From Nocardia sp. BSTN01 (GTDB lineage Bacteria; Actinomycetota; Actinomycetes; Mycobacteriales; Mycobacteriaceae): a stretch of 64,000 nt of DNA. The stretch spans positions 1-64,000 of the forward strand of contig NZ_JADKYP010000039.1 of NCBI RefSeq assembly GCF_015354405.1, in the 5' to 3' direction. The stretch's first letter is position 1. Each line of letters starts with the position of its first letter. Shown here piece by piece: positions 3,285 to 64,000 of this stretch. The position numbers were made by a program, and so were the translations under genes. Under the pieces are notes generated by a model. That model saw only the letters and a program-made list of their open reading frames with translations, did no database searches and was not told the origin of the DNA.

Positions 3285-3482
3285 CTACTCGTCTTCGCTG
3301 AACGAAATTGCCTGTGCGGGACAGCAGGCGACGGCCTGCTCCACCGGCAGACGATCCGCCTCGGAAATCGAACCGGCGCGAACCGTGGACCTCCCGGTGC
3401 CGTCGAGGACGAAGACCTCCGCCACGAGCGCTTCGCAAATGCCGTGGCCCGCGCACCTGCCGGCGTCGACGGTCACTCTCAT
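3285..3482 (-). CDS. 3Fe-4S ferredoxin, P450-partner type
   Basis: A 65-residue electron carrier. Cluster ligands read CAGHGIC (Cys10, Cys16) and the distal CCP (Cys53/Cys54). A histidine sits in the place of the second cysteine, the pattern of actinobacterial 3Fe-4S ferredoxins that feed P450 enzymes. Its ATG overlaps the stop of the upstream SDR (ATGA), so the two are translationally coupled. The likely partner is one of the P450s at 7500-9938 or 10168-11505. No dedicated small ferredoxin reductase is next to it. Confidence 0.88.
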   Translation of the reverse strand: MRVTVDAGRCAGHGICEALVAEVFVLDGTGRSTVRAGSISEADRLPVEQAVACCPAQAISFSEDE

Positions 3483-5925: not shown

Positions 5926-5932
5926 GGTCTGC

Positions 5933-7486: not shown

Positions 7487-7499
7487 TTCCGGCCGCCGT

Positions 7500-9938
7500 T
7501 CAGGAGAGTGTGGTCAATCTGACCGGCAGGCCGTCCTTCGGCACCGGTAGCGTCGAATAGTCGAGCTTCCATCGGTAACCCGGCGGTACCGTCCATTCGT
7601 GGGTGAGCAGCAGGTTGTGCATGACCGTTTTGATCTCCAACTGGCCGAAATAGAGACCGATGCACTTGTGCACGCCACCACCGAAGGGCATCCAGGCGAA
7701 CTTGTGTGATTTGTCCTCGGCACGCTCCGGCGAGAACCGCTCCGGATCGAATCGGAAGGGGTCGGACCACAATTCAGGGTTGTAATGGTTGACGATGGCG
7801 TTGGCCGAAACACGGGTGCCCGCGGGAATGAAGTAGCCGTCGATCTCGGTGTCCCGGACAGCTTCGCGAAACAAACCCGGAACGGGGGCATTGAGCCGCA
7901 GCGATTCCTTCATGATCGAGTCGAGCACGGTGAACTTCGGCAGTGTGTCGTAGGCGATTTCCGCCGGGAGTTCCCGCGATTGCGCTCGTGCTCGCGTCTG
8001 CCATTCGGTGTTTTGAGCCAGGTAGTACGCCATCGTGGTCATCGTGATGGTCGAGGTGTCGTGTGCCGCCATGAGAAGAAAGATCATGTGGTCGACGACG
8101 TCCTGGTCGCTGAATCGGCGTCCGTCGTCGCTGCTCAGATGGCAGAGGGCGGAGAAGAGGTCGGGCGTGCGGGTCGCTCGTTTGGCGGGCAGATGTTCGT
8201 ACATGAACTCCTCGAGCACGGCGCGGCCGGCCACTCCGCGCGACCATTTCGTTCCGGGTAGCGGATACCGGACCCACGCGAGGCCGGCATCGACACAATC
8301 GACGAACGCCTTGTTGATGCGATCGGCCTCCGCGCGCGGCAGACGCAATCCGAGGAAGATCTCCAGCGCCACATCGAGAGTGAGCTCTTTGAGTTCATGC
8401 AGGAGCCGGACCCGGTCGCCGCTGGGAAATGCTGCCACCCGCTCACGAATCATGGGCTGCATCTGCTGCAGGTACCCCTCGAGATTCTTGGTCGTGAACG
8501 CTTGCTGCAATACCAGTCGGTGATCGCGATGCTCGTCGAAATCCATGAGCAGCAGGCCGCGCCGGAAGAATCTGCCGATCATGAATCCCCATGCGGGTTC
8601 GGCGGCAAACGCCTTGTCCCGGTTCAACGCGACAGCCTCACATCCCGACGGACTCAGCGGAGTGACGATCTTGCCTCCCGGGCCCGCGATGAAACTGATG
8701 TCGCCGAACGTCGCGCGCTGCTCGGCCACATACTGCTGTGGGTTCTTTCGGAAGAGCAGCAGATCCGGCACGGACGGCAGTGCAGGACCCTGAACCGGTT
8801 TCAACCCACTGCCGGCCGGCGGCTTCGCCAGATCGCGCGTACGGACCTTCGCCGGGGTGGTGACGTTGCTCGGAGAGGTGACGGCCCGTGTGGTCGGGCG
8901 GCCGGACGGCTTGCCGTTCAGGATCTTTCGAGGGTCGATACCTTCGCGTTTCCACGCCTCGGCCGCCCACGGCGAATAGAGCCTGTCCACCGGGAGCCGG
9001 TTGAATACCGGATTGAGCACTCGCATCGTCGCGGCGAAGCGCTGGAACCGCTTCTCCTTCCTGTCATCCCATTCCAGGCGGCACACATCGCGCATCTGCT
9101 GGGGCAACGTGCCGACCACCACCGTTCGGAGGAAGCCGTTCAACGGCGCCGACAGCAGCTTCCACACCGGAAGCGGTAGATTCGCGAGCCGCTTCGGCCT
9201 CGGGATTCCCTTCCGCAGGTATCCGGTCGCGTACAGGATCGTCGGCGTGGGCACGAATCGTTCGAGCATCGAATCCCAGTACGCGGTGAATTCCTCATAG
9301 GTCTCGGGCTGACTGCGTGTGCTGACACCGTAGAGCCGGTACCAGATCTTCGACTCCTCGAAAATCTGCGCCTTCTCCGCGTAGGACAGCCGCCGGATGA
9401 ACGTGTCGGTGGCGTAGATGACCTGGTCGACGAAAGTGGCGTGCGCCCAATAGAACAGTTCCGGATTCAAAGCGTGGTAGCGCGAGCCGTCACTGTCGAT
9501 GGTCCCCTTGATGGACTTGTGGAAATCACGAACCGTCCGGCCCCAGTAGTCCGGCTCCGCCGAATAGAGTGTCTTCGCGATCGGTGGCTCGGTGCGCCTA
9601 CCCCGAGCAATCGGATCCTCGAAGAACACCGAGTGATCCTCGACCCCCTTCGCCAACTGCTCGATGCAGTTCTCCGTACCGGCGATGCGCTGAAACCCGA
9701 GCAAGGACCGGACGTCGCCGAAGTACTTCCAGGTCAGCGAGTCCGGACCGAGGCGGGCCGGCGGTTCGTCCGTCAGCGGGGCCGCCACCGCCTCTCGGAT
9801 TCTCTCATCGAATCCCACTGTGGCGGTGGGCTTTCCATTGTCCGGGATCGGGCCGGGCCCGGGCTCGTGCGGCGGCACGGTGCCCGCAATCGCTTCGACG
9901 CCGGGCGTTTCGGATGAGGCAGTGTTCGGCTTCTGCAT
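7500..9938 (-). CDS. MpaB-type oxygenase (DUF2236) fused to a cytochrome P450
   Basis: One 812-codon reading frame carries two oxygenases. Residues about 65-335 are an ER-bound oxygenase MpaB/DUF2236 domain (WKYFGDVRSLL at 70-80; RYHALNPELFYWAHATFVDQ near 153-172). A proline-, serine- and threonine-rich linker (about 340-385) leads to a complete P450 (386-812): oxygen-binding helix AAHDTST at 624-630, ExxR at 678-681, and heme loop FGGGVHKCIG with Cys759. No frameshift is visible at the junction. It heads the operon to aldehyde dehydrogenase, acyl-CoA ligase, SDR and ferredoxin, and has a regulon operator at its promoter. The substrate is unknown; consecutive oxidations of one lipid are plausible. 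Confidence 0.85.
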   Translation of the reverse strand: MQKPNTASSETPGVEAIAGTVPPHEPGPGPIPDNGKPTATVGFDERIREAVAAPLTDEPPARLGPDSLTWKYFGDVRSLLGFQRIAGTENCIEQLAKGVEDHSVFFEDPIARGRRTEPPIAKTLYSAEPDYWGRTVRDFHKSIKGTIDSDGSRYHALNPELFYWAHATFVDQVIYATDTFIRRLSYAEKAQIFEESKIWYRLYGVSTRSQPETYEEFTAYWDSMLERFVPTPTILYATGYLRKGIPRPKRLANLPLPVWKLLSAPLNGFLRTVVVGTLPQQMRDVCRLEWDDRKEKRFQRFAATMRVLNPVFNRLPVDRLYSPWAAEAWKREGIDPRKILNGKPSGRPTTRAVTSPSNVTTPAKVRTRDLAKPPAGSGLKPVQGPALPSVPDLLLFRKNPQQYVAEQRATFGDISFIAGPGGKIVTPLSPSGCEAVALNRDKAFAAEPAWGFMIGRFFRRGLLLMDFDEHRDHRLVLQQAFTTKNLEGYLQQMQPMIRERVAAFPSGDRVRLLHELKELTLDVALEIFLGLRLPRAEADRINKAFVDCVDAGLAWVRYPLPGTKWSRGVAGRAVLEEFMYEHLPAKRATRTPDLFSALCHLSSDDGRRFSDQDVVDHMIFLLMAAHDTSTITMTTMAYYLAQNTEWQTRARAQSRELPAEIAYDTLPKFTVLDSIMKESLRLNAPVPGLFREAVRDTEIDGYFIPAGTRVSANAIVNHYNPELWSDPFRFDPERFSPERAEDKSHKFAWMPFGGGVHKCIGLYFGQLEIKTVMHNLLLTHEWTVPPGYRWKLDYSTLPVPKDGLPVRLTTLS

Positions 9939-9998
9939 ATGCGCGAGCTCCTGTCAGATAACGACAGTGGTCGGCGGAGACGACAACCACGGACCACC

Positions 9999-10017
9999 GG
10001 TATCAGATACCGTCGGT
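9999..10017. promoter_or_regulatory. Shared regulon operator, copy B (MpaB-P450 operon)
   Basis: The minus strand reads ACCGACGGTATCTGATACC, a full consensus match. It contains the perfect 15-bp palindrome CGGTATCAGATACCG (9998-10012). It begins only 3 bp downstream of the -10 box, so a bound repressor would block transcription start. Confidence 0.8.
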
Positions 10018-10020
10018 ATA

Positions 10021-10050
10021 ATTGTGCGCTCAATCACATCGATGGGTCAA
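10021..10050 (-). promoter_or_regulatory. Promoter of the MpaB-P450 operon
   Basis: On the minus strand TTGACC (10045-10050) and CACAAT (10021-10026) are separated by 18 bp. The same -35/-10 arrangement recurs at the other operator-bearing promoters at 19613-19642, 20749-20777 and 21220-21248. Confidence 0.65.
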
Positions 10051-10167
10051 GACTCATGACGCGGCGGTCGTCGAAAACGCAGTGCCGCGTTCACCGCAGG
10101 GCGGATCGCGCCGGAATCGAGAAACCCCGGCCGGCCCGCGGTTGCGCGGCCGGCACCCACGGATGGA

Positions 10168-11505
10168 TCACGACATCGCCGACCCCCGCTGTTCTCGACG
10201 GCGGAGGGCCACCCGTCCGCCTCTGTCCGGAGCAAACGCGACACCGCGGTCGCGCCACCGCTCGTCCCGCTCAGCGGTCGGTAGCAGTTCGAAATCGCGC
10301 AGCAGCGCCCGCAACACTATTCGCATCTCGAGATTCGCGAATTCGGCCCCGATACAGCGCCGATTTCCGCCACCGAACGGCAACCATGCGGTGAAATCCG
10401 GCTTCCGGTCGTGAAAACGGCCGGGATCGAAGGAGAGCGGATCGGGATATACCGACGGGTCCTGATGCATCAGACCGAAAGCGACGATGATCCGGCGGTC
10501 CTTCGGAATGACCCACTCCCCCAGTTGCATCCTGGAAATCTTGACCTGCCGGGCAACTCCCGCGATCACCGGGCGAATTCGTTGCACCTCCCAGATGGTC
10601 TGCTGCAGGAAGCCGAGGTCGCCGGTATCGAGTTCGGCGACGAGGCGAGCGAGCACTTCCGGATGCCGGCGTAGCCGCTCCACCACCCAGGCGAGGGTGT
10701 TGGCCGTGGTTTCGTGGCCGGCGGTCAGCAACGCCAACAACTCGTCCGCGATATCCTCGTGCGCCATGGATTCGCCGTCCTCGTACCTCGCCCGCAGCAG
10801 CAGAGCGAGAATATCGGCACGCTCCTCGAGATCCGGATCCGCGAGGGCGCGACCGATCAGGGTGCGGATCAGTGAGTCGTACCGGTCCCGAAGTCCGCGA
10901 TACCGTACCCACGGGCTGAATCGTCCCCGGCGCAGCGTCGCTGTCGAAAATTGCGCGAGCCTGGATCCGAGGGTGACGATCTTCGGCATCAACACCCGCA
11001 GCTCTTCCAACTCGTCGCCGTCGGCACCGAATACCGCCCGCAGAATGATATTCAGAGTGATACGCATCGTCGACGGGAGGATCGGGAACTCGTGGTTCTC
11101 TGCCCACCGGTCGGCCTCGCGACGGTACTCCTCTTCGATCAGCGATTCGTAACCTCGCATCCGCCGGCCGTGCAGCGGCGGCGAGAGTATTTTGCGATGT
11201 CTCCGGTGCGGGTCACCATCGAGAGCGAACAATGAGCCCGGCCCGAGAATTCGGCCCAGGTTGGGCTCCACATTTCCCGCGACTTCGGGGCCCGCGGCGA
11301 ACAGTTGCCGAGCCAGGTCGGGATCGGATATGACGACGGCTTCGCCGAGCAGCGGGACGTTCAGGCTGAATGCGCGCCCGTATCGTTCCCATGTCCGATG
11401 CAACGCCCGGCGCCGACCGGCGAGGTAGGTTGCCCCCTGAATGGCCCGCGGCGCACGCGGGCCAGGCGGCAGATTGATGGGGAGGGCGGTGTCCACGCTA
11501 CTCAT
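10168..11505 (-). CDS. Cytochrome P450
   Basis: A 445-residue P450 monooxygenase. Motifs are AGHETT in the I helix (262-267), EVQR as ExxR (306-309) and FGGGNRRCIG with heme-ligand Cys384. The N-terminal LPPGPRAP stretch and loop lengths resemble the CYP135/CYP138 group of mycobacteria. It lies 26 bp downstream of the Baeyer-Villiger-type monooxygenase on the same strand, so it probably shares its transcript. Electrons could come from the ferredoxin at 3285. Substrate unknown. Confidence 0.9.
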   Translation of the reverse strand: MSSVDTALPINLPPGPRAPRAIQGATYLAGRRRALHRTWERYGRAFSLNVPLLGEAVVISDPDLARQLFAAGPEVAGNVEPNLGRILGPGSLFALDGDPHRRHRKILSPPLHGRRMRGYESLIEEEYRREADRWAENHEFPILPSTMRITLNIILRAVFGADGDELEELRVLMPKIVTLGSRLAQFSTATLRRGRFSPWVRYRGLRDRYDSLIRTLIGRALADPDLEERADILALLLRARYEDGESMAHEDIADELLALLTAGHETTANTLAWVVERLRRHPEVLARLVAELDTGDLGFLQQTIWEVQRIRPVIAGVARQVKISRMQLGEWVIPKDRRIIVAFGLMHQDPSVYPDPLSFDPGRFHDRKPDFTAWLPFGGGNRRCIGAEFANLEMRIVLRALLRDFELLPTAERDERWRDRGVAFAPDRGGRVALRRREQRGSAMS

Positions 11506-11531
11506 CGAGAATTCTTTCCCATCGTCCCGGA

Positions 11532-13013
11532 TCAGGCCCGCAGCGATACAGACTTCGGCGATCGGCGCCCGAAGACCATGCTCTCACCGATGTTTCCGAA
11601 CCTCATCGTCCCGAAATCGAGGAGATAATTCTGGCGCACCTGCCAAGGCGCACGATCGGATTGTTTCGGCATGACGCTCTGGGCTCGCAATACATACCCG
11701 GACTTCAAATTCAGGAATGGGCGTTCCCGAAAGTCCTTACCCCCGGTCGACGGAGCGGCGAAGTCGTATCCGTGCTCGTCGAGGTAGTTGAGCAGACGGC
11801 ATACATAGCGAGACGACAGATCCGCACGGAGCGTCCACGACGCGTTGGTGTAACCGATGCACCAGGCGAAGTTGGGCATATCGCTGTACATGACCCCCCG
11901 ATAGGCCCACTTGTCATGCAGGGAGACTTTCCGGCCATCGACTTCCAGATCGATTTCCCCGGCGGCGACAACTTGCAACCCGGTCGCGGTGACGATGATA
12001 TCCGCGTCGAGATGCCTTCCGGACTCGAGTTGAATACCGGAGGATGTGAACTGCGCGATCTTGTCGGTGACAATCGAAGCCCGGTCCGACTTCAGTGCCT
12101 CGAACAGGTCACCGTCGGGCGCCAGGCACAATCGCTGGTCCCACGGGTCGTAGTCGGGGACGAAATGTGGATCGGCGGATACCGAGGAGCCAGCGAGTCG
12201 CTTGTCCGCAACGCGTTGCAGCATCGACCGCGAACTTTTCGGAAAACGCCTGACGAACTGCCACATGACCGCCCCGAGTGCCAGATTTCGCCAGCGTGCG
12301 ATCTTCGCTACCCGCGAGGGTGACACCAGCAGCCGGAGCCTGGCAACCATCGGATCCCGGCCCGGTACCGCGCCCACATAAGTGGGCGAGCGCTGCAGCA
12401 TGGTGACATGCCCGGCCTCCGGCACCATCGCGGGAACCAACGTCACCGCCGTGGCGCCGCTGCCGATCACGACAACCTTCTTACCCGAGTAGTCCAAATT
12501 CTCCGGCCACTGCTGCGGGTGGACGACGGTGCCCTGAAATCTATCCCGGCCCGGAAACTCGGGGGTGTACCCCTCTTTGTAGCTGTAATAACCACTGCAG
12601 AGGTACAGGAAACGGCACGTGAATGTTCGTACGGATCCGTCGCCGGACGTCGCCTGTACGGTCCACCGCGCCGACTCCGAGGACCACGCGGCGGTGGTCA
12701 CCTGGTGGTCGTAGTGGATATGTCGGTCGATCTCGTATTCGCGGGCAGTGTCGCTGATGTAGGAAAGGATCGCCGGGCCGGCGGCGATGGCATCCGGCTG
12801 GTCCCACGGCCGGAAGGGATAGCCGAGAGTGAACATGTCCGAGTCGGAGCGTATACCGGGATAGCGGAACAGATCCCACGTTCCTCCCAACGCCGACCGC
12901 CCTTCGAGAATGGCGTACGTCTTTCCGGGACATTCGGTTTGCAAACGATATGCTGCATCGATTCCGGACAATCCTGCTCCGACGATCAATACGTCGAAAT
13001 ACGTCTCGCTCAT
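11532..13013 (-). CDS. FAD-dependent monooxygenase, Baeyer-Villiger type (EthA/MymA-like)
   Basis: A 493-residue class B flavoprotein monooxygenase. The FAD fold is GAGLSG (12-17), the family fingerprint FxGxxxHxxxWP is present as FQGTVVHPQQWP (159-170), and the NADPH site is GSGATA (184-189). Such enzymes insert oxygen next to a ketone or oxidise heteroatoms. Its start overlaps the stop of the acyl-CoA ligase by 4 bp. The combination with ligase, hydrolase and SDR parallels the mycobacterial mymA operon. An ester made here could be cleaved by the hydrolase at 14626. Confidence 0.9.
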   Translation of the reverse strand: MSETYFDVLIVGAGLSGIDAAYRLQTECPGKTYAILEGRSALGGTWDLFRYPGIRSDSDMFTLGYPFRPWDQPDAIAAGPAILSYISDTAREYEIDRHIHYDHQVTTAAWSSESARWTVQATSGDGSVRTFTCRFLYLCSGYYSYKEGYTPEFPGRDRFQGTVVHPQQWPENLDYSGKKVVVIGSGATAVTLVPAMVPEAGHVTMLQRSPTYVGAVPGRDPMVARLRLLVSPSRVAKIARWRNLALGAVMWQFVRRFPKSSRSMLQRVADKRLAGSSVSADPHFVPDYDPWDQRLCLAPDGDLFEALKSDRASIVTDKIAQFTSSGIQLESGRHLDADIIVTATGLQVVAAGEIDLEVDGRKVSLHDKWAYRGVMYSDMPNFAWCIGYTNASWTLRADLSSRYVCRLLNYLDEHGYDFAAPSTGGKDFRERPFLNLKSGYVLRAQSVMPKQSDRAPWQVRQNYLLDFGTMRFGNIGESMVFGRRSPKSVSLRA

Positions 13014-14629
13014 CTTGGCTCCTGCCCATTACCCGGGCGTGCACGCAATTCACGCCGCAGAATTTTTCCGGTCGATGATTTGGGAACGACGTCGACGAAT
13101 TCGACGGCACGTACCTTCTTGTGCGGTGCAACTCGTTCGGCAACGTAGGCGATGACGGCAGGCACGTCGATATCAGCACCGGGGCCGCGCACGACGAAGG
13201 CTTTGGGAATCTCCTCGCCGTCGTGGTCGAGAGCGCCGATCACCGCGGCATCAGCAATCGCTGGGTGCGTCAGCAGGACGGCCTCGAGTTCAGCGGGTGG
13301 AACCTGATAACCCTTGTACTTGATAAGTTCCTTCAGCCGATCGACGATGGTTACGACACCACGACTGTCGACGGTCGCGATATCGCCGGTATGTAGAAAT
13401 CCGTCGGCGTCGAGGGCCGCGGCGGTCGCCTCCGGATTGCCGAGATAACCTGCCATGACGTTCGGACCTCGACAGCACAATTCGCCGGGCGCACTGATCC
13501 CGACGTCCGGAATTTCTATTTCCGCACCACTCTGGGGATCGAGCAACTTGCACTGCATGTTCGGCACGGTATATCCGACCGAGGCCAGACTGATATCGTC
13601 ACACTCCGCCGGTATCGCATGGCTTACCGGGCTCATCTCCGACATTCCGTATCCTTGCCGGACCCGGCAGCCGAGGCGGTCACCGACAGCACGTCCCAGT
13701 GCCGCGTCCAAGGGAGCGGCGCCCGACAGAATGGTATGTACGGAGTCCAGGTCGTACTCGTCGACCAGCGGATGCTTGGCCAGCGCAATGGCCAGGGGCG
13801 GCGCGATGAAGAGGTAGGTGCAGCGGAAGTCCGATACGGTCCGGAGGAACTGCGCCAGCTCGAATCTCGGCATGGTGACCAATGTGGCGCGGCGGCGCAG
13901 TGCCGCATTGAGCAGCACAGTCATCCCGTAGATATGGAAGAAGGGCAGCAGTGCGAGCACGCGATCGTTCCGGCCGATCCCCATGATCCGGTCGATTTGA
14001 CATGCGTTCGCGACCAGATTGCGGTGGGTGAGCATCACCCCTTTGGGCCGGCCCGTCGTTCCCGACGAATACGGCAGCACGGCGATATGCGAGGACGGGG
14101 CGAAAAACGGATGGACGGCGTCGAGATCGGTCTCGCACGCGGTAGCGATGAAACCCTCCAAACCCGTGGGCCCGAGCGGATCGTCGCTGTCGATCACCAC
14201 CACGTCGGTTGCCGACAGGCCGGCCGACACTGCCGCCTCCACAGCGCGACCCGCCAGGACGGACACGGTGAATACCAGCGAGGCCCGCGAATCGACCAGT
14301 TGGTGGGCGACCTCGTCGCTGGTGTAGAGCGCATTCACCGTCGTGGCGGTACATCCGGACCGCAGAATCCCATGGAATACCGCGGCGAACGCGGGACTGT
14401 TCGGCGCATATAAGGCAATGACGGCGCCCACGGTCAAACCTCGGGCCGTAAGAGTCGCGGCGACCCCTCGAATCGTCGCGACCAATTGGCCGTAGGTGAT
14501 GGTTTCTCCGGAGATCCCGTCGATGAGGGCCGGCCGCTCGCTGTCGCCGCTGTCGAGATCGGCGAAGAGAAAGTCGAATACCGACTCATCGGGGACGTTG
14601 ACGTCTCGAAACGGGCTTCCGAAGGTCAC
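13010..14629 (-). CDS. 4-coumarate-CoA ligase-like acyl-CoA synthetase
   Basis: A 539-residue AMP-forming ligase. P-loop YSSGTTGRPKG is at 187-197, followed by GYGMSEMSP, the hinge LHTGDIATVDSRGVVTIVDR and the C-terminal lysine in STGKILRREL. Sequence style is closer to plant-type 4CL enzymes than to the FadD at 4306, so the two probably activate different acids of the pathway. GTG start with GGGGGGAG upstream. It overlaps the hydrolase stop by 4 bp at one end and the monooxygenase start by 4 bp at the other. Confidence 0.88.
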   Translation of the reverse strand: MTFGSPFRDVNVPDESVFDFLFADLDSGDSERPALIDGISGETITYGQLVATIRGVAATLTARGLTVGAVIALYAPNSPAFAAVFHGILRSGCTATTVNALYTSDEVAHQLVDSRASLVFTVSVLAGRAVEAAVSAGLSATDVVVIDSDDPLGPTGLEGFIATACETDLDAVHPFFAPSSHIAVLPYSSGTTGRPKGVMLTHRNLVANACQIDRIMGIGRNDRVLALLPFFHIYGMTVLLNAALRRRATLVTMPRFELAQFLRTVSDFRCTYLFIAPPLAIALAKHPLVDEYDLDSVHTILSGAAPLDAALGRAVGDRLGCRVRQGYGMSEMSPVSHAIPAECDDISLASVGYTVPNMQCKLLDPQSGAEIEIPDVGISAPGELCCRGPNVMAGYLGNPEATAAALDADGFLHTGDIATVDSRGVVTIVDRLKELIKYKGYQVPPAELEAVLLTHPAIADAAVIGALDHDGEEIPKAFVVRGPGADIDVPAVIAYVAERVAPHKKVRAVEFVDVVPKSSTGKILRRELRARPGNGQEPR

Positions 14630-15561
14630 GATCTCCCCCCTCCGGCCCCCAGGCCCGCTGCCCGCCGGACGCTACGTAGCCTCCCGACCACCTCTGCGGA
14701 GCGCTCGTAGGGCAGGAAGTGACCGGCGTCGGGTAGCAGGGTCAAAGACGCGTTCGGCAGAGCCGCCGCCAGCGCGATCGAATGCCGCGGCGGGCACAAG
14801 CGGTCGATGGAGCCTCCGACCACCGCCACCGGCTTGGCCGCATAGGGCTGTAGCGCGCGGAGCCGGCTGTGCCTGGACATCGACATGCCGAATTCGACGG
14901 TGACGCCCGGGCCGGCCAATTCCGCCTGCGCCAGCGCGCGGTCGATGTCCTCATTGCGGGCATCGCGGCCGAACAGCACGGCACGTGCATTGAGCCGGGC
15001 TGCTCGCTGGGAAGGCGGCCGCTGCGCCGACCGCTCTCCTCGGGCGAAGTACCAAGGAATCACACGCTCGGAGAAGAATGGGCTGCGGCGCAGGCGAGGA
15101 AAGAAGGGCCCGGCCGTGGTGGCCACGAATGCCGCGCCCGCGACACGGTCCGCGACCAGCGTGGGATGCCGCTCCCCGAGCGTGGCGATCGTCATCCCGC
15201 CCATCGAATGGCCGACGAGGACAATCGGCCCGGCCACCTGTGACGCGATGATTTCCGCCAGGTCGTCGGCGAGACGTTCCAGATTTCCGGTTCCGGGCGG
15301 CAGGCGATCGGAAAGACCGTGTCCGCGATGGTCGTAGGTGAGGAAGGCGGCGTCGGACTCCGCGGCCTCCATGCGCGCCCTCACGTCGTCCCAGGAGCGG
15401 TGGTCGAGCGTCCAGCCGTGGGCGAACAGATAGGTGACCACCGAATCGGCCGCTCCCCCGCGCCACAGTGCCAGGGTGGTCCCGTCCGATGTCGTGAAGC
15501 GCTGCGCCGCCTCCGATCCCGAACTGTCGAAGGTGGAATGCTCCAGATTGCTCAGTACCAT
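14626..15561 (-). CDS. Alpha/beta hydrolase
   Basis: A 311-residue alpha/beta-hydrolase-fold enzyme. The oxyanion strand is FAHGW (47-50), the nucleophile elbow GHSMGG carries Ser119, the acid is probably in SIDRLCPP and the His in DAGHFLPYE. The ATG at 15561 is preceded by AGAGGAAAG at ideal distance, better than two upstream start codons. First gene of the hydrolase-ligase-monooxygenase-P450 series. Likely role: ester or lactone hydrolysis, by context. No regulon operator was found upstream of it. Confidence 0.85.
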   Translation of the reverse strand: MVLSNLEHSTFDSSGSEAAQRFTTSDGTTLALWRGGAADSVVTYLFAHGWTLDHRSWDDVRARMEAAESDAAFLTYDHRGHGLSDRLPPGTGNLERLADDLAEIIASQVAGPIVLVGHSMGGMTIATLGERHPTLVADRVAGAAFVATTAGPFFPRLRRSPFFSERVIPWYFARGERSAQRPPSQRAARLNARAVLFGRDARNEDIDRALAQAELAGPGVTVEFGMSMSRHSRLRALQPYAAKPVAVVGGSIDRLCPPRHSIALAAALPNASLTLLPDAGHFLPYERSAEVVGRLRSVRRAAGLGAGGGRS

Positions 15562-15650
15562 GGTCTTTCCTCTCTGCATGGCCAACAGCTAAGGGGCGTC
15601 TCGGCTGTAGGCGGATCCTCGGCCGGGATGAAACGAACAGGAGAACCTCT

Positions 15651-16325
15651 ATGGCGGACGCACGTACCGAGCGCTGGGTCGCTCACCGAGCCGAGGTTCG
15701 GGAGCGACTGGTCGTTTCGGCCATGCGGACGATCGATACGCTCGGGCCGCAGGCGACGATGCGCGATTTCGCGAGGGAAGCAAAGATCCAGAAGCCGACG
15801 CTGTACCGGTTCTTCACCGACAAGGCGGAACTGGTGCGTGCGATTCTGGAAAGTATGCGCTCCCAGCTCCACGAGCGGATCGTGACGGTACCCGCCGACC
15901 CCGACGTCACCGTCGGCGACTTCGTGCATTCGTGCGTCGCGGCCTACCTCCAGGCCGTGCACGAGCATCCGAATATGTTTCGCCTCGCTGTACAGATAAT
16001 GGCGGAAACGCCTGATCTGGAAGGCGAGCACATCGCCAGGCGAGCCACCATTTCCGACGATGTCGCCGCTATTCTCCGGCGAATGATTACCACATTCGGA
16101 GGCACAGGTACGGATGTCGAACTCGATGCTCAGATGATTGTCGGTAGCGTGATGATCGGGGGACACTGGTGGCTCGAACACGGCACGGCGAACATCCAAT
16201 TCGATCATTTGCTCGATCGTGTGACCAAAACCGTTCGCGCGATGATCCAGGCCACTGCGCATGCGAATCGCATACATATAGATTTCGATACGCCGATCGC
16301 AGTGGTCTCGTCGACCGCCGAATGA
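15651..16325 (+). CDS. TetR family regulator, paralogue of the one at 2374
   Basis: A 224-residue TetR protein divergent from the hydrolase, with 89 bp between the start codons. Its DNA-binding domain (ATMRDFAREAKIQKPTLYRF) and N-terminus (ADARTERWVAHRAEVRERL) closely match the TetR at 2374-3060, while the ligand domain has drifted. It may control the hydrolase operon or compete for the shared operator. Neither a copy of the 19-bp operator nor another clear palindrome was found in the divergent spacer. Confidence 0.87.
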   Translation: MADARTERWVAHRAEVRERLVVSAMRTIDTLGPQATMRDFAREAKIQKPTLYRFFTDKAELVRAILESMRSQLHERIVTVPADPDVTVGDFVHSCVAAYLQAVHEHPNMFRLAVQIMAETPDLEGEHIARRATISDDVAAILRRMITTFGGTGTDVELDAQMIVGSVMIGGHWWLEHGTANIQFDHLLDRVTKTVRAMIQATAHANRIHIDFDTPIAVVSSTAE

Positions 16326-16420
16326 CAGTTCCCACGCCGGGCACCGACGAGGCACGGCGACGGCCGGATTCGCAATGGGGATCAGTCGTACACCGGTCGA
16401 AATCATGAGGTGGTCCTGTG

Positions 16421-17512
16421 CTATTGGTCGAAGGCGATGTCGATGGAATCGCTGACCGGGACGGCCTGGCACGCCAACGTGAGCCCAACGCGGATATCCG
16501 CGTCCACCAGCGTGTCGTTGCGGAGCATTTTGACCTCGCCGCTGCGCACCGTGCAGGCGCAGGCGCTACATGCTCCTTCGCGGCACGAGAAGGGCGCGTC
16601 GTAACCCTGGCTCAGCAGCACGTCGAGGAGCTTCGCATTCCGTGGCCACCGTAACTGGATCTTCCGGCCACCCAACTCCACCGTCACGCCTGCCGGAGTC
16701 TCACCATCGGTGGGCTCGGCTACCTCGATATCGGCGAACGGATCTCCGGAAAGGGACCGGTACAGCTCGATATGGAGCCTGGAGTCGGGCACGCCGATGG
16801 TGCCGAGAGCAGACCGCGCGACCTCCATGAACGAGGCCGGCCCGCAGACGAAGGCGTCATATGCCGAATAGGCCCCGAGGGAGTCGATCAGACCGTTCAC
16901 CGTCGGCAGCCCGCGTTCGGATTCCAGCCAATGTTCCACATTAAGCCGATCCGGGAACTCACGCATGATGTCGTCGAGTTCGTCGCCGAAGATCACCGAC
17001 TTCTCGTCCTTGTTCGCGTAGAACAGGTAGACCGTGCCACTCCCGCCGATCAGCGTCGACTTCGCAATGGAAATCATGGGCGTGATTCCGCTGCCCGCGG
17101 CGACCAGCAATAGATCGACGTCCAATGATTTCGGGACGAACACCCCCGACGGAGTCAGAACCGTGAGCCGCATCCCGACCTCGGCGTTGTCGCACAACCA
17201 ATTCGAAGCGTATCCTCCGGCGGTTCGCTTGACTGTCACCACCAGGTCGTCGTCCAGGTGGGGGGAACTCGACAGCGAATAGCATCGCGCCACCGCCCCG
17301 GTCCGGTCGCTCGGTACACGTATCGTGAGGAATTGCCCGGGATGGTATTTGAATTTAGAGACGAGCGCCTCCGGGACTTCGAGTACGAGGGAGGCCGCAT
17401 CACCTGTTTCGCGGATGACTTCGACGACTGTGAGATTGTGAACATGCGTGTTGCCGTGCCCGGTGCCGGCAACGTCGGGCCGGGCCGCGGTCGTACTATC
17501 TTCTTCTGACAT
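16421..17512 (-). CDS. Ferredoxin-NAD(P) oxidoreductase with 2Fe-2S domain (KshB-like)
   Basis: A 363-residue reductase in the order FAD domain (RCYSLSSSP, 77-85), NAD domain (GSGITP, 140-145; CGPASFM, 223-229) and C-terminal plant-type 2Fe-2S domain (Cys310, 315, 318, 348). This matches the reductase of 3-ketosteroid 9-alpha-hydroxylase in order and length. No Rieske oxygenase gene is nearby, so the partner here is more likely the diiron oxygenase (18525-19529) in the same transcription unit. An in-frame upstream start at 17548 is possible; neither start has a strong ribosome binding site. Confidence 0.87.
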   Translation of the reverse strand: MSEEDSTTAARPDVAGTGHGNTHVHNLTVVEVIRETGDAASLVLEVPEALVSKFKYHPGQFLTIRVPSDRTGAVARCYSLSSSPHLDDDLVVTVKRTAGGYASNWLCDNAEVGMRLTVLTPSGVFVPKSLDVDLLLVAAGSGITPMISIAKSTLIGGSGTVYLFYANKDEKSVIFGDELDDIMREFPDRLNVEHWLESERGLPTVNGLIDSLGAYSAYDAFVCGPASFMEVARSALGTIGVPDSRLHIELYRSLSGDPFADIEVAEPTDGETPAGVTVELGGRKIQLRWPRNAKLLDVLLSQGYDAPFSCREGACSACACTVRSGEVKMLRNDTLVDADIRVGLTLACQAVPVSDSIDIAFDQ

Positions 17513-17566
17513 TTCGCGTCGTGTACCTCGTTGGACAGCGCGCTTCATCGACAGCGCGGTTCAGGG

Positions 17567-18412
17567 CTACTTTCGATCGAATTGGGAGGCGATACGGGAC
17601 CGACTCGCGAGACTCGCCGCGATGTCCTGGTAACGCGGCCCGAGAATCCGCGGAATCAGGTCGAATCCCCGCGCGTCGGGGCCGATCAGCACCCGTGGCC
17701 GGTTTCGCTCGATACCCCGGACGATAGCCCGAGCCGCACCCTCCGGCCGGGTGAACGCGATGCGTTGAAACTGCCGGCTCGCCTCGGCACGTTCCTCTTC
17801 CGACTCACCGGCACCGCGTGCGTGGGCGACGATATTCGTCTTGATGCCGCCGGGATGAACACACGTGACACCTACCGGATATCGCCCGATCCGCATTTCC
17901 TGCCGCAGCGCCTCCGTGAAACCCCGAACGGCGAACTTTGCGGAGTTGTAAGCACTTTGCGAGGGAACGCCGATCAGCCCGAAAACCGACGAGATATTGA
18001 CAATATGGCCGTCACCGGAGGCCACCAGATCCGGAAGGAAGGCTTTGGTGCCGTGTGCGACCCCCCAAAAGTCGATGTTCACGACCCATTCGAAGTCTTC
18101 CCAGGACATGTCGATAATATTGGCGCTCAGGGCGACCCCGGCGTTGTTGACGACCAGATTCGCCTCACCGAATTCCTTCCGTACATCGTCGGCATACGCA
18201 TAGACCTCGTTGCGATCGGAGGTGTCCACCTGGTATGGAACCGCGATTGCTCCGATCTTCTCGCACCGTGCGGCGGTGTCGGCCACCGCGGCAGAGTCGA
18301 TATCCGAGAGGGCAAGCTTCGCCCCTCGGCGCGCCAGGTTCAATGCGAGCGCGCGGCCTATCCCCGAACCCGATCCGGTGATGACAGCAACCTTGTTCTT
18401 GAAGTCCTTCAT
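17567..18412 (-). CDS. Short-chain dehydrogenase/reductase, SadH-like
   Basis: A 281-residue SDR: TGSGSGIG at 12-19, NNAG at 89-92, catalytic Tyr155/Lys159 (YNSAK). The central stretch (WEDFEWVVNIDFWGVAHGTK, then HIVNISSVFGL and SQSAYNSAKFAVRGFTE) closely resembles SadH, the SDR of the M. tuberculosis mymA operon, as remembered. It lies between the diiron oxygenase and the KshB-like reductase, all on the minus strand, and probably oxidises or reduces the hydroxylated intermediate. Confidence 0.87.
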   Translation of the reverse strand: MKDFKNKVAVITGSGSGIGRALALNLARRGAKLALSDIDSAAVADTAARCEKIGAIAVPYQVDTSDRNEVYAYADDVRKEFGEANLVVNNAGVALSANIIDMSWEDFEWVVNIDFWGVAHGTKAFLPDLVASGDGHIVNISSVFGLIGVPSQSAYNSAKFAVRGFTEALRQEMRIGRYPVGVTCVHPGGIKTNIVAHARGAGESEEERAEASRQFQRIAFTRPEGAARAIVRGIERNRPRVLIGPDARGFDLIPRILGPRYQDIAASLASRSRIASQFDRK

Positions 18413-18524
18413 GGTTTCATTCCTTTATCGACGCTGTCATACCGATTCGGCAAGTCGTGCGTCTTCTTTTCCGGTGAGTTCGGCTACGCGTCTGTCAGGC
18501 CCGGATGCGTCACCGACACGAATT

Positions 18525-19529
18525 TCAGGCAGCGGACCTTTCGCGCTCGATTTGCTCGAGCAAATCGTCCGGAAGCGACCGCGACCACTTGTAGAGGCGA
18601 GTTGTGACAGGCCCACGAATCATTCCGACTTCATGGAGGTAACGAACCAGCGGCTCCGACCGGAAAATCGCCTGAGACCGGTATTCTTTACTCGTCATCG
18701 CGGTCAGGAATCCCTTGAGCGGATGAATCCCGACCGATCGGTACACTTTCGGATTTACCAGCACCGGCTGAACCAGCATGTTCTGCAGGGCGAACAGGCC
18801 CCGGTGCCATGCATTGGCAGCTTTACCGCGGGCCTGAATCGCACGGACCAATTCCTCCCGCGCGTAGGTGATGTGACGCGCTTCCTCCAGGATGTGGATC
18901 TTCATCATCTGCCGCAGATGAGGCTGCAGCTCGGGATCGTTCATCGCTTCGCGCTGGAACCGGTCCAGCAGTTCCTCGATGAGCAGGGTGCCGGCCAGGA
19001 CGGACGGCCCACGCGGAATGAAACCCATAACACGGTATAGCCACGTGAGCGCCGAGGGTTGCCGATACGGCTCCAGCTCGCTCAGATTGACCAGGCGGCT
19101 GAACATCGTCGAATGCCGAGTCTCTTCGGCGACTTCGGCGAGTGCGTACCGGCTGTGATCGTCGGTCATTTCGTCGCTTTCGAGCACGCCGCGCAACAGC
19201 ATGGTACTGAGCCCGACCTCGGCCATGATCCCGAAACTGAGAATCGCCACCATCTCGTGCATGCCGAGAGTACGACGCTGCTCGTCGGTCAATGTGGCCC
19301 AGAGCCGGCTTCCGTACAGTGTCTGCCGGTGATCGGGGATCCACTTCTTTTCCGGATCGAGCGGTGCGTCCCAGTTGATGTCGAGCTCACCGTCATACGA
19401 GCGATCGGCCGTCGAACGCAACAGACGCTGTGCCGTCTTCTGCCGATCTCCGACATTCTTCAGGGTTGTCGTGGAGATTCCGGCGTTGTTGACGACCGAC
19501 CGGGGCGCTTCTACTTCGAATGTCGTCAT
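18525..19529 (-). CDS. AurF-type diiron oxygenase
   Basis: A 334-residue member of the AurF/p-aminobenzoate N-oxygenase family, with helices carrying a full set of diiron ligands: Glu104, Glu136 and His139 (EETRH), Glu186, and His212, Glu216, His219 (HILEEARH). The spacing matches the AurF pattern of H-x3-E-x2-H. It is the first gene of the group running to the SadH-like SDR and KshB-like reductase, the latter a plausible electron donor. Its promoter carries a regulon operator. Substrate unknown; hydroxylation or N-oxidation are both possible. Confidence 0.85.
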   Translation of the reverse strand: MTTFEVEAPRSVVNNAGISTTTLKNVGDRQKTAQRLLRSTADRSYDGELDINWDAPLDPEKKWIPDHRQTLYGSRLWATLTDEQRRTLGMHEMVAILSFGIMAEVGLSTMLLRGVLESDEMTDDHSRYALAEVAEETRHSTMFSRLVNLSELEPYRQPSALTWLYRVMGFIPRGPSVLAGTLLIEELLDRFQREAMNDPELQPHLRQMMKIHILEEARHITYAREELVRAIQARGKAANAWHRGLFALQNMLVQPVLVNPKVYRSVGIHPLKGFLTAMTSKEYRSQAIFRSEPLVRYLHEVGMIRGPVTTRLYKWSRSLPDDLLEQIERERSAA

Positions 19530-35698: not shown

Positions 35699-60163
<24,465 letters not shown>

Positions 60164-60214
60164 CGTGTAACCCCTCGCTCGGACTCGCGGGCACTGCGGC
60201 ACAACGGATATGGA

Positions 60215-60519
60215 CTGCTCGGTGTTCGAACAGTGCAGTGGGTGTTTCAGGGCGGCAGAAGCAGTTCCGCCGTCCGGGACCTCGTATTCACAGACGTAGC
60301 GACGTGGCGACGTCGTCGAGCCGATCAGCTGCCGACATCCCCGCACAGGGGTCGGCAGCATCCGACCTGCATGCGTCGTCTCGGAGCGAGCTCAGCTGGA
60401 TCGAGACGCAACGGCCGCGGAATCCGACTCACACGGGCCGCCTGCCTTCCGGGCTCCCCGCCCACGAATGGCATCGACAGCTATTCGACGCCACAGGGAT
60501 CTTGGATCGGAAACATTTT
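60215..60519 (-). repeat. 305-bp duplicated control region, copy in front of the NRPS
   Basis: This block is the reverse complement of 62205-62509 with two mismatches by eye (near 60352 and 60405), so 303 of 305 positions agree. It ends 51 bp before the NRPS start codon. It holds the palindrome TGTTCGAACA (60223-60232) and a G/C hairpin around 60331-60357. No protein family match was seen in any frame; it is best read as promoter plus 5' leader. Confidence 0.93.
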
Positions 60520-60654
60520 TCGCAGGCTCGCATGTTGCTGTTTGCGCGATATGACCAACATGAGCAGTTCGACCGATTCGCGGTCCGGCCTTCTTCCGCC
60601 TACTTTGGTACCGCCGGATAGCCGTGTGCCCGCTTGCCAACCGAGATGGGCACC

Positions 60655-60683
60655 GGTGTCCCGCCCCATCGGGGTGGGACACC
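60655..60683. promoter_or_regulatory. Strong 13-bp hairpin between NRPS and mbtH
   Basis: GGTGTCCCGCCCC (60655-60667) and GGGGTGGGACACC (60671-60683) form a 13-bp stem with a single G:T wobble and a 3-base loop. It lies in the divergent spacer and could be an operator, an attenuator or a barrier between two leaders. No T-run follows on either strand. Confidence 0.6.
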
Positions 60684-60754
60684 ACCTCGAAGACCGTGCA
60701 GTTCACACTCTCTTCACCTGCCAGGATTTCTCCCACGGGGAAGGAGGATCTGAT

Positions 60755-60859
60755 TTGCTGTCGCAGCTTTTCGGCCACCCGGCCGGAGCGCTCGCCGAGC
60801 ACACTCGACGCTCCACATACCGCACTATCGCCGATACGGCTGCAGTAACCGGCAACTGA
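60755..60859 (+). CDS. Possible small leader ORF upstream of mbtH
   Basis: A 34-codon frame starting with TTG has a near-perfect ribosome binding site AAGGAGG (60741-60747) seven bases upstream, the strongest in this spacer. The predicted peptide begins MLSQLFGHPAGALAEH and has no recognised family. It ends 110 bp before mbtH. It may be a leader peptide or a chance match. Confidence 0.3.
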   Translation: MLSQLFGHPAGALAEHTRRSTYRTIADTAAVTGN

Positions 60860-60969
60860 AACCGAACATTCTCGGCGCAACGCCCCTTCAGTAGGACTGC
60901 ATCGCAGAGGCCGGCGTTTCGGACTGGGAAGTTGTCCATCCACTCGATACGACCGTTCAGGGAGGCGAA

Positions 60970-61239
60970 ATGACCAGCACCAACCCCTTCGACGACGACA
61001 ATGGCCGATTCTCGGTTCTGATCAACGACGAGGAACAATATTCCATCTGGCCGACCTTTGCGGAGGTCCCCGACGGGTGGGATGTCGTGTTCGGCGAAAA
61101 CAGCCGCGACGCCTGCATCGAGTACATCGAAAAGAACTGGACCGATATGCGGCCGAAAAGTCTGCGTGACGCGATGGCGGCCGACGACACGGCACGCAAA
61201 AACGACAAGCCCAAATCCTCGACCCGCCGCCGCAAATAA
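60970..61239 (+). CDS. mbtH: MbtH-like protein, NRPS adenylation cofactor
   Basis: An 89-residue MbtH-family protein that binds adenylation domains and is needed for their folding or activity. Signature residues are present: [23 protein letters not shown], the [11 protein letters not shown] loop and [10 protein letters not shown], including three conserved tryptophans (27, 37, 57). A basic tail (KSSTRRRK) is additional. GGGAGG ribosome binding site. Divergent from the NRPS and presumably dedicated to it. Confidence 0.95.
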
Positions 61240-61332
61240 CGAACAGTTCCACGGCGCCGGATTCGATCGCTTCACATGGCCGGCACATCTGAAGTCCAGC
61301 ATTGAAATCTCTTCTCCGATGGAAGGTGATCT

Positions 61333-62133
61333 ATGGGCAAGGGAAAGCACTCGGCTACCAAGACGCACCGAAGAATGGCGATTTCGGCGGTAGGGACGGG
61401 AGTTGCCGTTTCGATGACGCTGGCGCTCACGGGAACCGGCCTCGCGAGAGCCGACGCTGCCCAGACCGCCCCAGCAACAGAGTCGAATCGCTCCGAGTCC
61501 GGGCAGCCGGCGCAGTGGCCTGCGGCCGAACCGCCGAACGTACATCCGTACGAAGGGCTGAAGATTCCGGACAACACATTCAGCTCGCTACAGTGGGCAC
61601 GCCCGACGCCGGAGCAGAACTACCTGGCTCCGGTAGGCGTACTACATGCCCCCGTCCCGGTCGCACCGGTGCCGCCGATCGCACCGCCGGCCGGAAAACT
61701 GCGCTTCGGTGATGTTCAGGTCGATGCCCCCGAGTGGCTCTACCGGGAGCAAGCGATCCAGCTCAACGACGGCGCTGCGGTTACCGAGGCCAATATGGCG
61801 ACCTTCCTCGACTCGGTGGGAATGGAACGCAGCCGATCGGACCGCATCGCAGGCGAAGCTCTCGGTGGTGCCGCGATCGGTGCGGTGACAGGTGCCGCGG
61901 TAGCTAGCCCGTTCGCACTGGTCGGAGCAGTCGTCGGCGGTGGAATAGGACTTGCCGTCGGAATGCCGTTCGCGCCGATCGGCCTTGCCGCGGGCCCGGT
62001 CGGCGCCGCTTACGGAGCCGCGCTCATGGCTGTCCCACTGGCGGCCATCGGTGCCGCGGCCGGTGGAACCCTCGGTGCGGTGCACGCTCTCACCGCTCCA
62101 CCGAGAACGGTCGGGATGCTTCGGACATCGTGA
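61333..62133 (+). CDS. Secreted glycine-zipper protein
   Basis: A 266-residue envelope or secreted protein without assigned function. A signal peptide (about 1-42, cleavage near ARADA) is followed by a proline-rich middle (about 45-125) and a C-terminal half with alternating small residues (GGAAIGAVTGAAVASPFALV through GAAAGGTLGAVHAL) typical of glycine-zipper membrane segments. GGAAGG ribosome binding site. Lies 93 bp after mbtH on the same strand, so it may be part of the biosynthetic locus, for example in export or self-protection. Confidence 0.7.
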   Translation: MGKGKHSATKTHRRMAISAVGTGVAVSMTLALTGTGLARADAAQTAPATESNRSESGQPAQWPAAEPPNVHPYEGLKIPDNTFSSLQWARPTPEQNYLAPVGVLHAPVPVAPVPPIAPPAGKLRFGDVQVDAPEWLYREQAIQLNDGAAVTEANMATFLDSVGMERSRSDRIAGEALGGAAIGAVTGAAVASPFALVGAVVGGGIGLAVGMPFAPIGLAAGPVGAAYGAALMAVPLAAIGAAAGGTLGAVHALTAPPRTVGMLRTS

Positions 62134-62140
62134 TCCAGAG

Positions 62141-62183
62141 CGTTGTATGTGTGGCGCAGTTCAGGATCGCCGCACATACAACG
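62141..62183 (+). terminator. Long inverted repeat after the secreted protein gene
   Basis: CGTTGTATGTGTGGCG (62141-62156) pairs with CGCCGCACATACAACG (62168-62183), 16 bp with one mismatch around an 11-base loop. It starts 7 bp after the stop codon and fits a terminator for the mbtH unit, although no T-run follows. Confidence 0.6.
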
Positions 62184-62204
62184 CCCGATCGAGCTCCTGT
62201 GAAG

Positions 62205-62509
62205 AAAATGTTTCCGATCCAAGATCCCTGTGGCGTCGAATAGCTGTCGATGCCATTCGTGGGCGGGGAGCCCGGAAGGCAGGCGGCCCGTGTGAGTCGG
62301 ATTCCGCGGCCGTTGCGTGTCGATCCAGCTGAGCTCGCTCCGAGACGACGCATGCAGGTCGGATGCTGCCGGCCCCTGTGCGGGGATGTCGGCAGCTGAT
62401 CGGCTCGACGACGTCGCCACGTCGCTACGTCTGTGAATACGAGGTCCCGGACGGCGGAACTGCTTCTGCCGCCCTGAAACACCCACTGCACTGTTCGAAC
62501 ACCGAGCAG
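62205..62509 (+). repeat. 305-bp duplicated control region, copy in front of the cutinase
   Basis: The inverted partner of 60215-60519, oriented so that the same end faces the downstream gene. It stops 58 bp before the cutinase ATG, close to the 51 bp at the NRPS. The palindrome TGTTCGAACA is at 62492-62501. Outside the block, similarity falls away abruptly on the gene-proximal side and more gradually on the far side. Confidence 0.93.
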
Positions 62510-62567
62510 CGCACGGGAGAGACCGCACTCGGCTGCACACACAGAATTCCATCCGGGAGATTCGTCC

Positions 62568-64000
62568 ATGATGTCGAAGGTGCACGCACGACCGATGCGC
62601 TCGGCACTGTTGCGAGGGATGTCGAGCGTATTCGTTGCGGCTGCCGTTACGGCAGCCGGGTCAGCAGCGGCGCAACCCGGCGATGGGTCATCGCCCGATG
62701 CGCGGCAGTGTCCTCCCCTGTATGTCCTCGGGGTCCAAGGGACAGGCGAATCATCGCCTGATGCATCGGTTTCCGTCGATGACGGCATGCTTTCGGCAGT
62801 GCTTGTCCCACTTCTGTCCAGAGTGGGGCCACAGGGGGCAGGGCACGCGTACGTCCCGTACCTGGCTTCGTTCGGCGGCATGGTGCCCGGCGGGCCTACG
62901 CCGTATTCGTACTCGGCGGCCGAGGGTCTCGACCGCCTGCAGTCGATGGCACGCGAGATCGTCGGCCGATGCTCGCATACCGAGCTGGCGCTGATCGGTT
63001 ATTCGCAAGGGGCGCATGTTGTTTCGATGTTCGCGCAGGAAGTCGGGGCCGGCGGCGGCGCGGTTCGGCCGGATCAGGTCGCCGCGGTGGCACTACTCGC
63101 CGACCCTACCCGTGGCCGGGCCGCACCTGTGTTTCCAGGCGTCCCGGGTAAAGATCGGCCGGATCCGGCGCCCGACACCGCCGGAACGGAAGTGGCCGAG
63201 TTGCCGCGGTTTTCGCTACCCACTCCGCCGGGTGGCGGCATCGGCCCGATCCGAGACATCACCGAGAATTTCGGAGCGCTCACCGGGCGGGTGGCGTCGC
63301 TGTGCCTACCCGGAGACCTGGCGTGCGACGCACCCACCGATTCCCCGCTACTTCATATGATCGCGACGATGGCCGGGCAGGTCGAATTCAACCCCGACGA
63401 CCCGGTGGCGACACTGTTCTCCATCGCGGGCACCATCCAGGCGACACTCACGAAAACGCTGGCAACGGCGGTGACCGAGGACCCGCACGGCTATTCGCTC
63501 GGAACCCTGTCTCTGACATCGGAAAAGACACTCAGTATCCGGCTCGCCGAAGCCGCCGACCCGCGCGTCCTCGCGGATCCGGAGTCTCGCGACGCGCTGC
63601 TGAAACTGGCGACCGCCGCGTTCAACACACTTCTCGCGATCACGGGGACCGCACTCGCACTGTCCACCTCCGAGTTTTCCCAGATCGCGACCGCTGCATC
63701 GGCCGACCCGCTCGCGGGGCTAACCCGCCTCGCCCAAGACGTCGCGTCGGCCTCGCACCATCCGCCGGCACAGCCCGAAGCGTTCCGGCCACTGACTCAG
63801 ATCTTCGATGCCGTCGGTCGGCTCGGTGCCGACAACGCCGAGTTGCTCGACCCGCACACGTGGCTCCGTTACGCCGACACCGTCCACCGACACGGCGCCT
63901 ACGCAACCGCCGGCATGAGCGTCCGCTCCAGCACCGAAGTGCTCGCCGACTGGTTCACCGCCGTGGCTCGCGACCTCGCCGGTCCCCATCTCTCCCGTCG
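62568..64000 (+). CDS. Cutinase-family serine esterase, secreted (partial, runs off window)
   Basis: The frame from ATG 62568 (GGGAGA seven bases upstream) stays open to the window end, giving at least 477 residues. A signal peptide ends near AGSAAAQP (about 35). The cutinase core follows: GVQGTG (55-60), nucleophile GYSQG with Ser146, then CLPGDLACD (246-254) and His263 as the probable acid and base. Typical actinobacterial cutinases end soon after this point; here over 200 further, mostly helical, alanine-rich residues follow and the end is unseen. It shares its 5' region with the NRPS, hinting that it acts on the peptide product or on the envelope during export. Confidence 0.85.
   Translation, partial: MMSKVHARPMRSALLRGMSSVFVAAAVTAAGSAAAQPGDGSSPDARQCPPLYVLGVQGTGESSPDASVSVDDGMLSAVLVPLLSRVGPQGAGHAYVPYLASFGGMVPGGPTPYSYSAAEGLDRLQSMAREIVGRCSHTELALIGYSQGAHVVSMFAQEVGAGGGAVRPDQVAAVALLADPTRGRAAPVFPGVPGKDRPDPAPDTAGTEVAELPRFSLPTPPGGGIGPIRDITENFGALTGRVASLCLPGDLACDAPTDSPLLHMIATMAGQVEFNPDDPVATLFSIAGTIQATLTKTLATAVTEDPHGYSLGTLSLTSEKTLSIRLAEAADPRVLADPESRDALLKLATAAFNTLLAITGTALALSTSEFSQIATAASADPLAGLTRLAQDVASASHHPPAQPEAFRPLTQIFDAVGRLGADNAELLDPHTWLRYADTVHRHGAYATAGMSVRSSTEVLADWFTAVARDLAGPHLSR

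Follow-up and report, generated by a model that had tools for sequence, protein, structure and literature searches.

Inverted repeats kept alike within genomes flank an mbtH cassette that lies in opposite orientations between NRPS and cutinase genes in assemblies of Nocardia species

Genes and inverted repeat of the locus

We analysed a stretch of 64,000 nucleotides (henceforth referred to as the window) from Nocardia sp. BSTN01 (G000), for which a draft assembly of 7.79 Mb in 206 contigs is available. A giant NRPS gene occupies positions 35699–60163 of the minus strand (24.5 kb, about 8154 aa, 7–8 modules and a terminal thioesterase domain). Upstream of it come, all on the plus strand, mbtH (60970–61239, 89 aa, Pfam E-value 9e-29), the gene of a predicted secreted protein of 266 aa (61333–62133) and that of a cutinase-family esterase of 631 aa (62568–64000 in the window and continuing past its end to 64463). 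The secreted protein presented no Pfam or NCBIfam match, and relatives of it occur in 150 of the 151 genomes of the genus that we surveyed (one genome per species) at E-values ≤0.001. Just behind its gene a hairpin (62140–62184, plus strand, 17-bp stem) closes the group formed by these two genes, henceforth the cassette. This hairpin is terminator-like, without a T run, and none of 200 shuffled sequences folded as well (−30.4 kcal/mol).

The cassette is flanked by the two arms of an inverted repeat, 305 nt each: arm A on the NRPS side (60215–60519, plus strand) and arm B on the cutinase side (62205–62509, minus strand). An initial annotation made from the letters alone had described a match at about 303 of the 305 positions, and alignment confirmed exactly this number, the two mismatches being at 60352 (T/C) and 60405 (G/C). 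Its distances of 51–58 bp to the start codons also hold, with 51 bp from the end of arm A to the ATG of the NRPS gene (60163) and 58 bp from that of arm B to the ATG of the cutinase gene (62568), and both mbtH and the secreted-protein gene are located between the arms as it had stated. An inverted-repeat search gave 99% complementarity at a spacing of 1685 nt, and this was the only one of four pairs of at least 35 nt in the window to exceed 80% complementarity. Searching the G000 assembly with the arm retrieved the second copy (E-value 1.7e-154) and no third copy in its 206 contigs.

Each arm can be divided in two. The core (60395–60519, plus strand, in arm A and 62205–62329, minus strand, in arm B) is common to the repeats of three relatives (G076, G083 and G086) and to a single copy in a fourth genome (G121). 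In arm A it passes without a break into the mbtH upstream region of the cassette (60520–60969, plus strand), which adjoins mbtH also in G076, G083 and G086, and partly in G121. The outer part (60215–60394, plus strand, in arm A and 62330–62509, minus strand, in arm B) appears to be upstream DNA of the cutinase side, arm B being the probable source of the copy that stands in arm A in place of native NRPS-side DNA (see below). Between arm A and the NRPS gene remains a leader that seems to have stayed outside the exchange (60164–60214, minus strand). The NRPS reading frame is open upstream as far as 60361, i.e. within arm A, and the start at 60163 is favoured over upstream alternatives because the alignment starts at residue 1 in all 23 other NRPS starts compared (5 + 18).

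Prediction of control signals gave no sigma-70-type promoter against 0.5 expected, and two terminator-like sites against 1.8 expected, neither of them the cassette hairpin. A search of 59500–63000 against Rfam at E-values up to 5 returned the hairpin as sole match; as it scored 20.6 bits where the gathering score is 72, we took it as chance. The core folds no better than shuffled sequences (z-scores of −0.60 and −1.00 on the two strands). Another strong hairpin (60641–60690, 13-bp stem, −31.4 kcal/mol) lies in the mbtH upstream region, and the relatives aligned with it do not share it in this form. The initial annotation had placed the NRPS and cutinase genes under the same signals; with DNA common to both arms, the two genes may be under shared control.

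Orientation of the cassette among related genomes

Among the 151 genomes the 305-bp block was matched in 12, and strongly in five: G000 itself, G071, G076, G083 and G086. Arm matches of 32–57 bp (G010, G011, G021, G063, G073, G101 and G125) and matches with E-values of 0.001–0.01 (G004, G013, G022, G029, G077, G100, G114 and G129) were treated as chance. G071 is taken to be the sister species, Nocardia kruczakiae NBRC 101016 (its contig C17 would be NZ_BDBL01000017.1). The mbtH cassette was not found in the G071 assembly and, being unassembled, leaves this genome uninformative on orientation.

The other three relatives (loci L023, L024 and L025, the last that of G086) have a complete locus. 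Each of them agrees with the window in the order and direction of the NRPS and cutinase flanks, but carries the part that spans mbtH and the secreted gene on the other strand. By tblastn, the order in G076 and G083 is NRPS (minus), secreted gene (minus), mbtH (minus) and cutinase (plus); in G086 it is NRPS (minus), mbtH (minus) and cutinase (plus), without the secreted gene. Inverted repeats are found at both junctions, at 4625–4845 and 6401–6620 in L023 (84.6% identity), 4311–4547 and 6084–6321 in L024 (91.6%) and 4693–4929 and 5661–5898 in L025 (89.5%), and they are shorter and more diverged than the 305-bp arms of the window. What separates the assemblies of these different species is, then, an inversion with arms at both of its junctions. 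Comparing the locus in related Nocardia was a check that the initial annotation had proposed, and the homologous arms and reversed cassettes found in this way support its suggestion that the segment can be inverted.

A hairpin also stands at the equivalent place in G076, G083 and G086, the comparison with shuffled sequences having been confined to the window; G086 has it despite the loss of the secreted gene. Of the latter only a 52-bp matching remnant is left there (L025 4929–5140), with the arms, mbtH and closing hairpin all kept. In another side observation, the NRPS flank of the window (58000–60208) is 94–95% identical to G076, G083 and G086 and the cutinase flank (62205–63996) only about 79%, whereas G071 is 94% identical to the window on both. 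Unequal in the relatives and equal in G071, these values suggest two flanks with different histories or constraints.

More distant arrangements were also found. G121, assembled as a single-contig chromosome, has one copy of the core between the NRPS gene and a divergent mbtH, as in the window, and this copy runs directly into the mbtH upstream region; the secreted protein and the cutinase were unmatched in the 14 kb fetched. In G023 and G139 the divergent pair is mbtH and the cutinase gene, as in G076, the NRPS orthologue runs in the opposite direction, and neither inverted repeat nor core was found in the 14 kb around mbtH. Relative to the group of the window, the entire NRPS gene is reversed at these two loci (L107 and L108) with respect to the mbtH–cutinase pair. 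An orthologous N-terminal part of the NRPS was matched in 67 of the 151 genomes, and the NRPS-start side was examined in 24 of them. Six of these make up the group described here, and at the 18 further NRPS-start loci mbtH and core were both absent from the fetched stretch.

The orientation seen in the window itself comes from the 206-contig draft, in which the arms match each other exactly over stretches of 137, 52 and 114 bp. It could be a mis-join, the true order being that of the three relatives and the arms and their conversion being real all the same. The sequence content at the inner edges of the arms is compatible with either orientation, and the G071 assembly is broken at the very same repeat. 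We nevertheless consider a mis-join unlikely. The arms are distinguished by two resolved bases and the stretch is free of N; reads of at least about 150 bp could have spanned each of the exact stretches; and the single-contig G121 has mbtH beside the NRPS gene and divergent from it, just as the window does.

Gene conversion between the arms

The sister genome G071 serves as a control for the age of the likeness between the arms. Its contig C70 comes from the NRPS side and breaks off about 80 bp into the repeat, and contig C17 starts about 80 bp into the repeat on the cutinase side, as would be expected of an assembler that stopped at a repeat it could not resolve. The two have 79 bp in common, which are identical; against full identity, the final base of the two ends differs. 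Compared with the window, these 79 bp contain six substitutions and one indel, and in each genome both copies carry them all. Divergence between the window and G071 is ~9% in the outer part of the arm, which is nevertheless alike within each genome. For the 305 positions of the G000 arms about 27 differences would be expected had there been no homogenisation since the split from G071, against the 2 observed (P = 7e-10, rising to 1e-3 if the rate is set to its lower bound).

The core could be compared more widely in a tree of 124 columns and nine rows, from which G071 was excluded since its core is unassembled. The two copies of G083 are identical, the G086 copies pair with a support of 98/96, and the G000 copies pair with 94/91, a value not above the tree's own mark of strong support. 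Grouping all four NRPS-side copies as a clade was rejected (p-AU 1e-56), as was such a grouping of those of the three relatives (p-AU 0.0024). In the 105 columns just inside the core, the copies of the relatives split by position instead, with a support of 100/100, and position-diagnostic columns number 13 in columns 141–241 versus none in columns 1–140. Because the core clusters mostly by genome and the adjoining inner DNA by position, gene conversion appears to have been confined to the repeat. The core tree, the diagnostic columns and the comparison with G071 all support the conversion that the initial annotation had considered; in these alignments the arms have been homogenised within genomes.

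Both copies of G086 share three bases private to them among the rows, one of which G121 also carries. Those of G000 are alike and differ from the three relatives in 13 columns; in four of these G121 has the G000 state, so the G000-specific states may be ancestral. G076 is the exception to the clustering by genome. Its copies, 90.5% alike, do not pair in the tree and so would have undergone no recent conversion. The cutinase-side copy of G076 holds a short stretch that resembles G000 and G121, where the corresponding copies of the other relatives are of the NRPS-side type. The pattern suggests that in G083 and G086 the cutinase-side copy was the one converted and in the lineage of the window the NRPS-side copy, the direction in the relatives resting on a few neighbouring sites. 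By parsimony, the repeat itself would be older than the split of the five species compared.

It is very improbable that functional selection, rather than conversion, has kept the copies alike, even if the core is conserved between species above its surroundings and is located before both outer genes. Selection would also preserve likeness between species, whereas the outer arm has diverged between the window and G071 while staying the same within each genome; nor would it explain a tree that groups by genome in the core and by position in the next 105 columns. Selection on the core may add to the likeness of the copies in the relatives but cannot account for the window and G071.

Replacement of the DNA upstream of the NRPS gene

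Upstream of the NRPS gene, the homology between the window and G076, G083 and G086 ends at 60208, at the far end of the leader, and returns in the core. The intervening DNA in G076, 165 bp native to the NRPS gene, was recovered by search from the G083 and G086 loci and was not found in G000 or G071. The search did not find it in G121 at an E-value of 0.01, despite a direct comparison with the NRPS upstream DNA of G121 in which 0 of 1000 shuffles reached the score. Against window positions 60215–60394, 442 of 1000 shuffles did so, i.e. there is no match. The counterpart of this part of the window in G076, G083 and G086 is on their cutinase side (0 of 1000 shuffles in each case). Together, the shuffle and search comparisons indicate that the NRPS gene in the lineage of the window lost about 165 bp of its native upstream DNA and gained that of the cutinase gene. 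The arrangement in G071 amounts to the same replacement, with the same outer arm edge as the window and species-specific changes in both copies.

A promoter may lie within the exchanged DNA. Compared with the inversion of the cassette, the replacement is the change more likely to matter. Like the gene conversion, it is independent of how the cassette is oriented in the window.

A model for the evolution of the locus

We think it likely, from the comparison of these sequences, that homologous recombination between old inverted repeats accounts for the locus as a whole, by way of conversion of the arms, occasional inversion of the cassette and, in the lineage of the window, an outward spread of the repeat. 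The starting point would have been the DNA upstream of mbtH. Since the core in G121 is continuous with this region, the repeat would have been ordinary intergenic DNA that was later duplicated in inverted orientation, and an inversion with staggered breaks could yield such a duplication in one step. From then on the arms would have flanked a self-contained cassette of mbtH, mostly the secreted-protein gene and the closing hairpin, set between the NRPS and cutinase genes. Recombination would copy one arm onto the other, and a crossover would at times invert the cassette. In the lineage of the window, conversion would have gone outward beyond the old core, carrying the upstream DNA of the cutinase side to the NRPS gene, and thereby both made the arms near-identical over 305 bp and replaced the native upstream DNA of the NRPS gene. 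General homologous recombination as the agent, and the direction of each conversion, are what we infer from the present state of the repeats.

As the cassette keeps both the mbtH upstream region and its end hairpin, after an inversion both outer genes would still be preceded by an arm and mbtH by the upstream DNA that belongs to it, and the expression of mbtH would probably be little changed. The same two features make an on/off switch unlikely and favour a tolerated rearrangement. A more far-reaching proposal is that the arms are a self-maintaining shared control region. Conversion would keep the NRPS and cutinase genes under common signals and could transfer control DNA at one stroke. Through flips in the population, the cassette would bring mbtH to the same intergenic region as now one, now the other of these genes, and so act as a slow and reversible coupling switch for a natural-product pathway. 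We hold this to be improbable.

Invertible DNA switches depend on a recombinase that acts on short sites. A site-specific switch of this kind, with phase variation turning genes on and off, would agree with a segment that lies between inverted repeats in both orientations, and is a highly doubtful explanation here. We found no recombinase domain, and no transposase domain either, in the scanned proteins of the cassette, the NRPS and cutinase proteins or 20 further ORFs around and to the left of the locus. The arms are 220–305 bp long with long conversion tracts, and the mbtH upstream region moves together with mbtH.

Still less credible is a single recent duplication of an upstream region with no continued exchange between the copies. 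It would fit the 303 of 305 identical positions in G000, and the initial annotation had offered recent duplication for this reason, but homologous arms are present in G076, G083 and G086, and also in G071 with the same outer edge, and the window and G071 differ at seven places in 79 bp that are common to both copies. What appears to be recent is only the homogenisation and widening of arms that predate the split of the species. Equally implausible is a mobile element that brought in mbtH and whose ends the arms would be. Inverted repeats do flank a gene cassette, but the genome yielded no more than the two copies, the cassette encodes MbtH and a protein lacking a Pfam match but no transposase, the same arms were not seen around the cassette at another place in the 151 genomes, and the core of G121 is single and merges into the mbtH upstream region, as in ordinary intergenic DNA.

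Comparison with known systems

Recombination between old, homogenised repeats, as we propose it here, is on the sequence evidence a process of known kind in a new place, acting on intergenic arms next to a giant NRPS gene. Of the described cases that we know, the nearest is the flip/flop region of Saccharomyces chromosome XIV, where homogenised inverted repeats repeatedly recreate two orientations (PMC9731477). According to the available part of that source, a segment between inverted repeats occurs in both orientations across a species group, the homogenised repeats cluster by strain or species, and the repeat is far older than the likeness of its copies implies. In Nocardia we likewise find inverted repeats at both ends (in the window and in all three complete loci of the relatives), both orientations, and clustering by genome except in G076. 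The differences are clear as well. The yeast system, again from the part of the source available, is eukaryotic, with a segment of 24 kb and 4-kb repeats made of genes, whereas the Nocardia segment is about 2 kb, its arms of 220–305 bp are intergenic, and orientations are compared between species only. The Nocardia arms have, moreover, apparently widened by taking in the upstream DNA of one gene.

The duplicate tuf genes of Salmonella are a bacterial parallel in which, in the available text of PMC5485169, non-reciprocal copying keeps near-identical sequences alike. Those are coding duplicates studied in the laboratory, in contrast to the nearby inverted and intergenic arms of Nocardia, known from comparison only. 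The likeness to DNA switches inverted by conservative site-specific recombination, as far as the accessible part of PMC5903667 describes them, lies in a short segment between inverted repeats with two orientations; it ends at the arms, which in Nocardia are long and homogenised, and at the recombinase, absent from the ORFs scanned. In the open-access literature we found no paper on this Nocardia locus or on inverted repeats with mbtH, and the available part of PMC7413640 makes no mention of kruczakiae, inversion, inverted, mbtH or cutinase.

The locus shows on a small scale, in bacteria and with a sister species to serve as control, how conversion between inverted intergenic repeats has put the upstream DNA of one gene in place of that of a neighbouring natural-product gene, and the cassette between these repeats is found reversed. 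It makes the spread of control DNA between genes without a mobile element a testable process. It also illustrates that short-read assemblies can lose or misplace such cassettes, as in the G071 assembly, which lacks the one carrying mbtH.

Other features of the window

Positions 1–19500 of the window have no long match in G071, G076, G083, G086 or G121, all of which carry the NRPS gene; there are scattered matches at 65–80% identity (up to 40 candidates were scored per genome). It looks as if the end of the NRPS gene lies beside a G000-specific island of catabolic genes (P450s, acyl-CoA ligases and a monooxygenase). A stretch at 173–511 has an 84% match to G071 (C17:6763–7112, ~5 kb past the cutinase gene there), so that the window's left end may formerly have been close to the cutinase side. 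On the minus strand, 7500–9938 holds an ORF of 812 aa that fuses MPAB/Lcp (rubber oxygenase type) and cytochrome P450 domains. Finally, a near palindrome with 41-nt arms (80%) and a spacer of 1 nt is found at 1225–1307.
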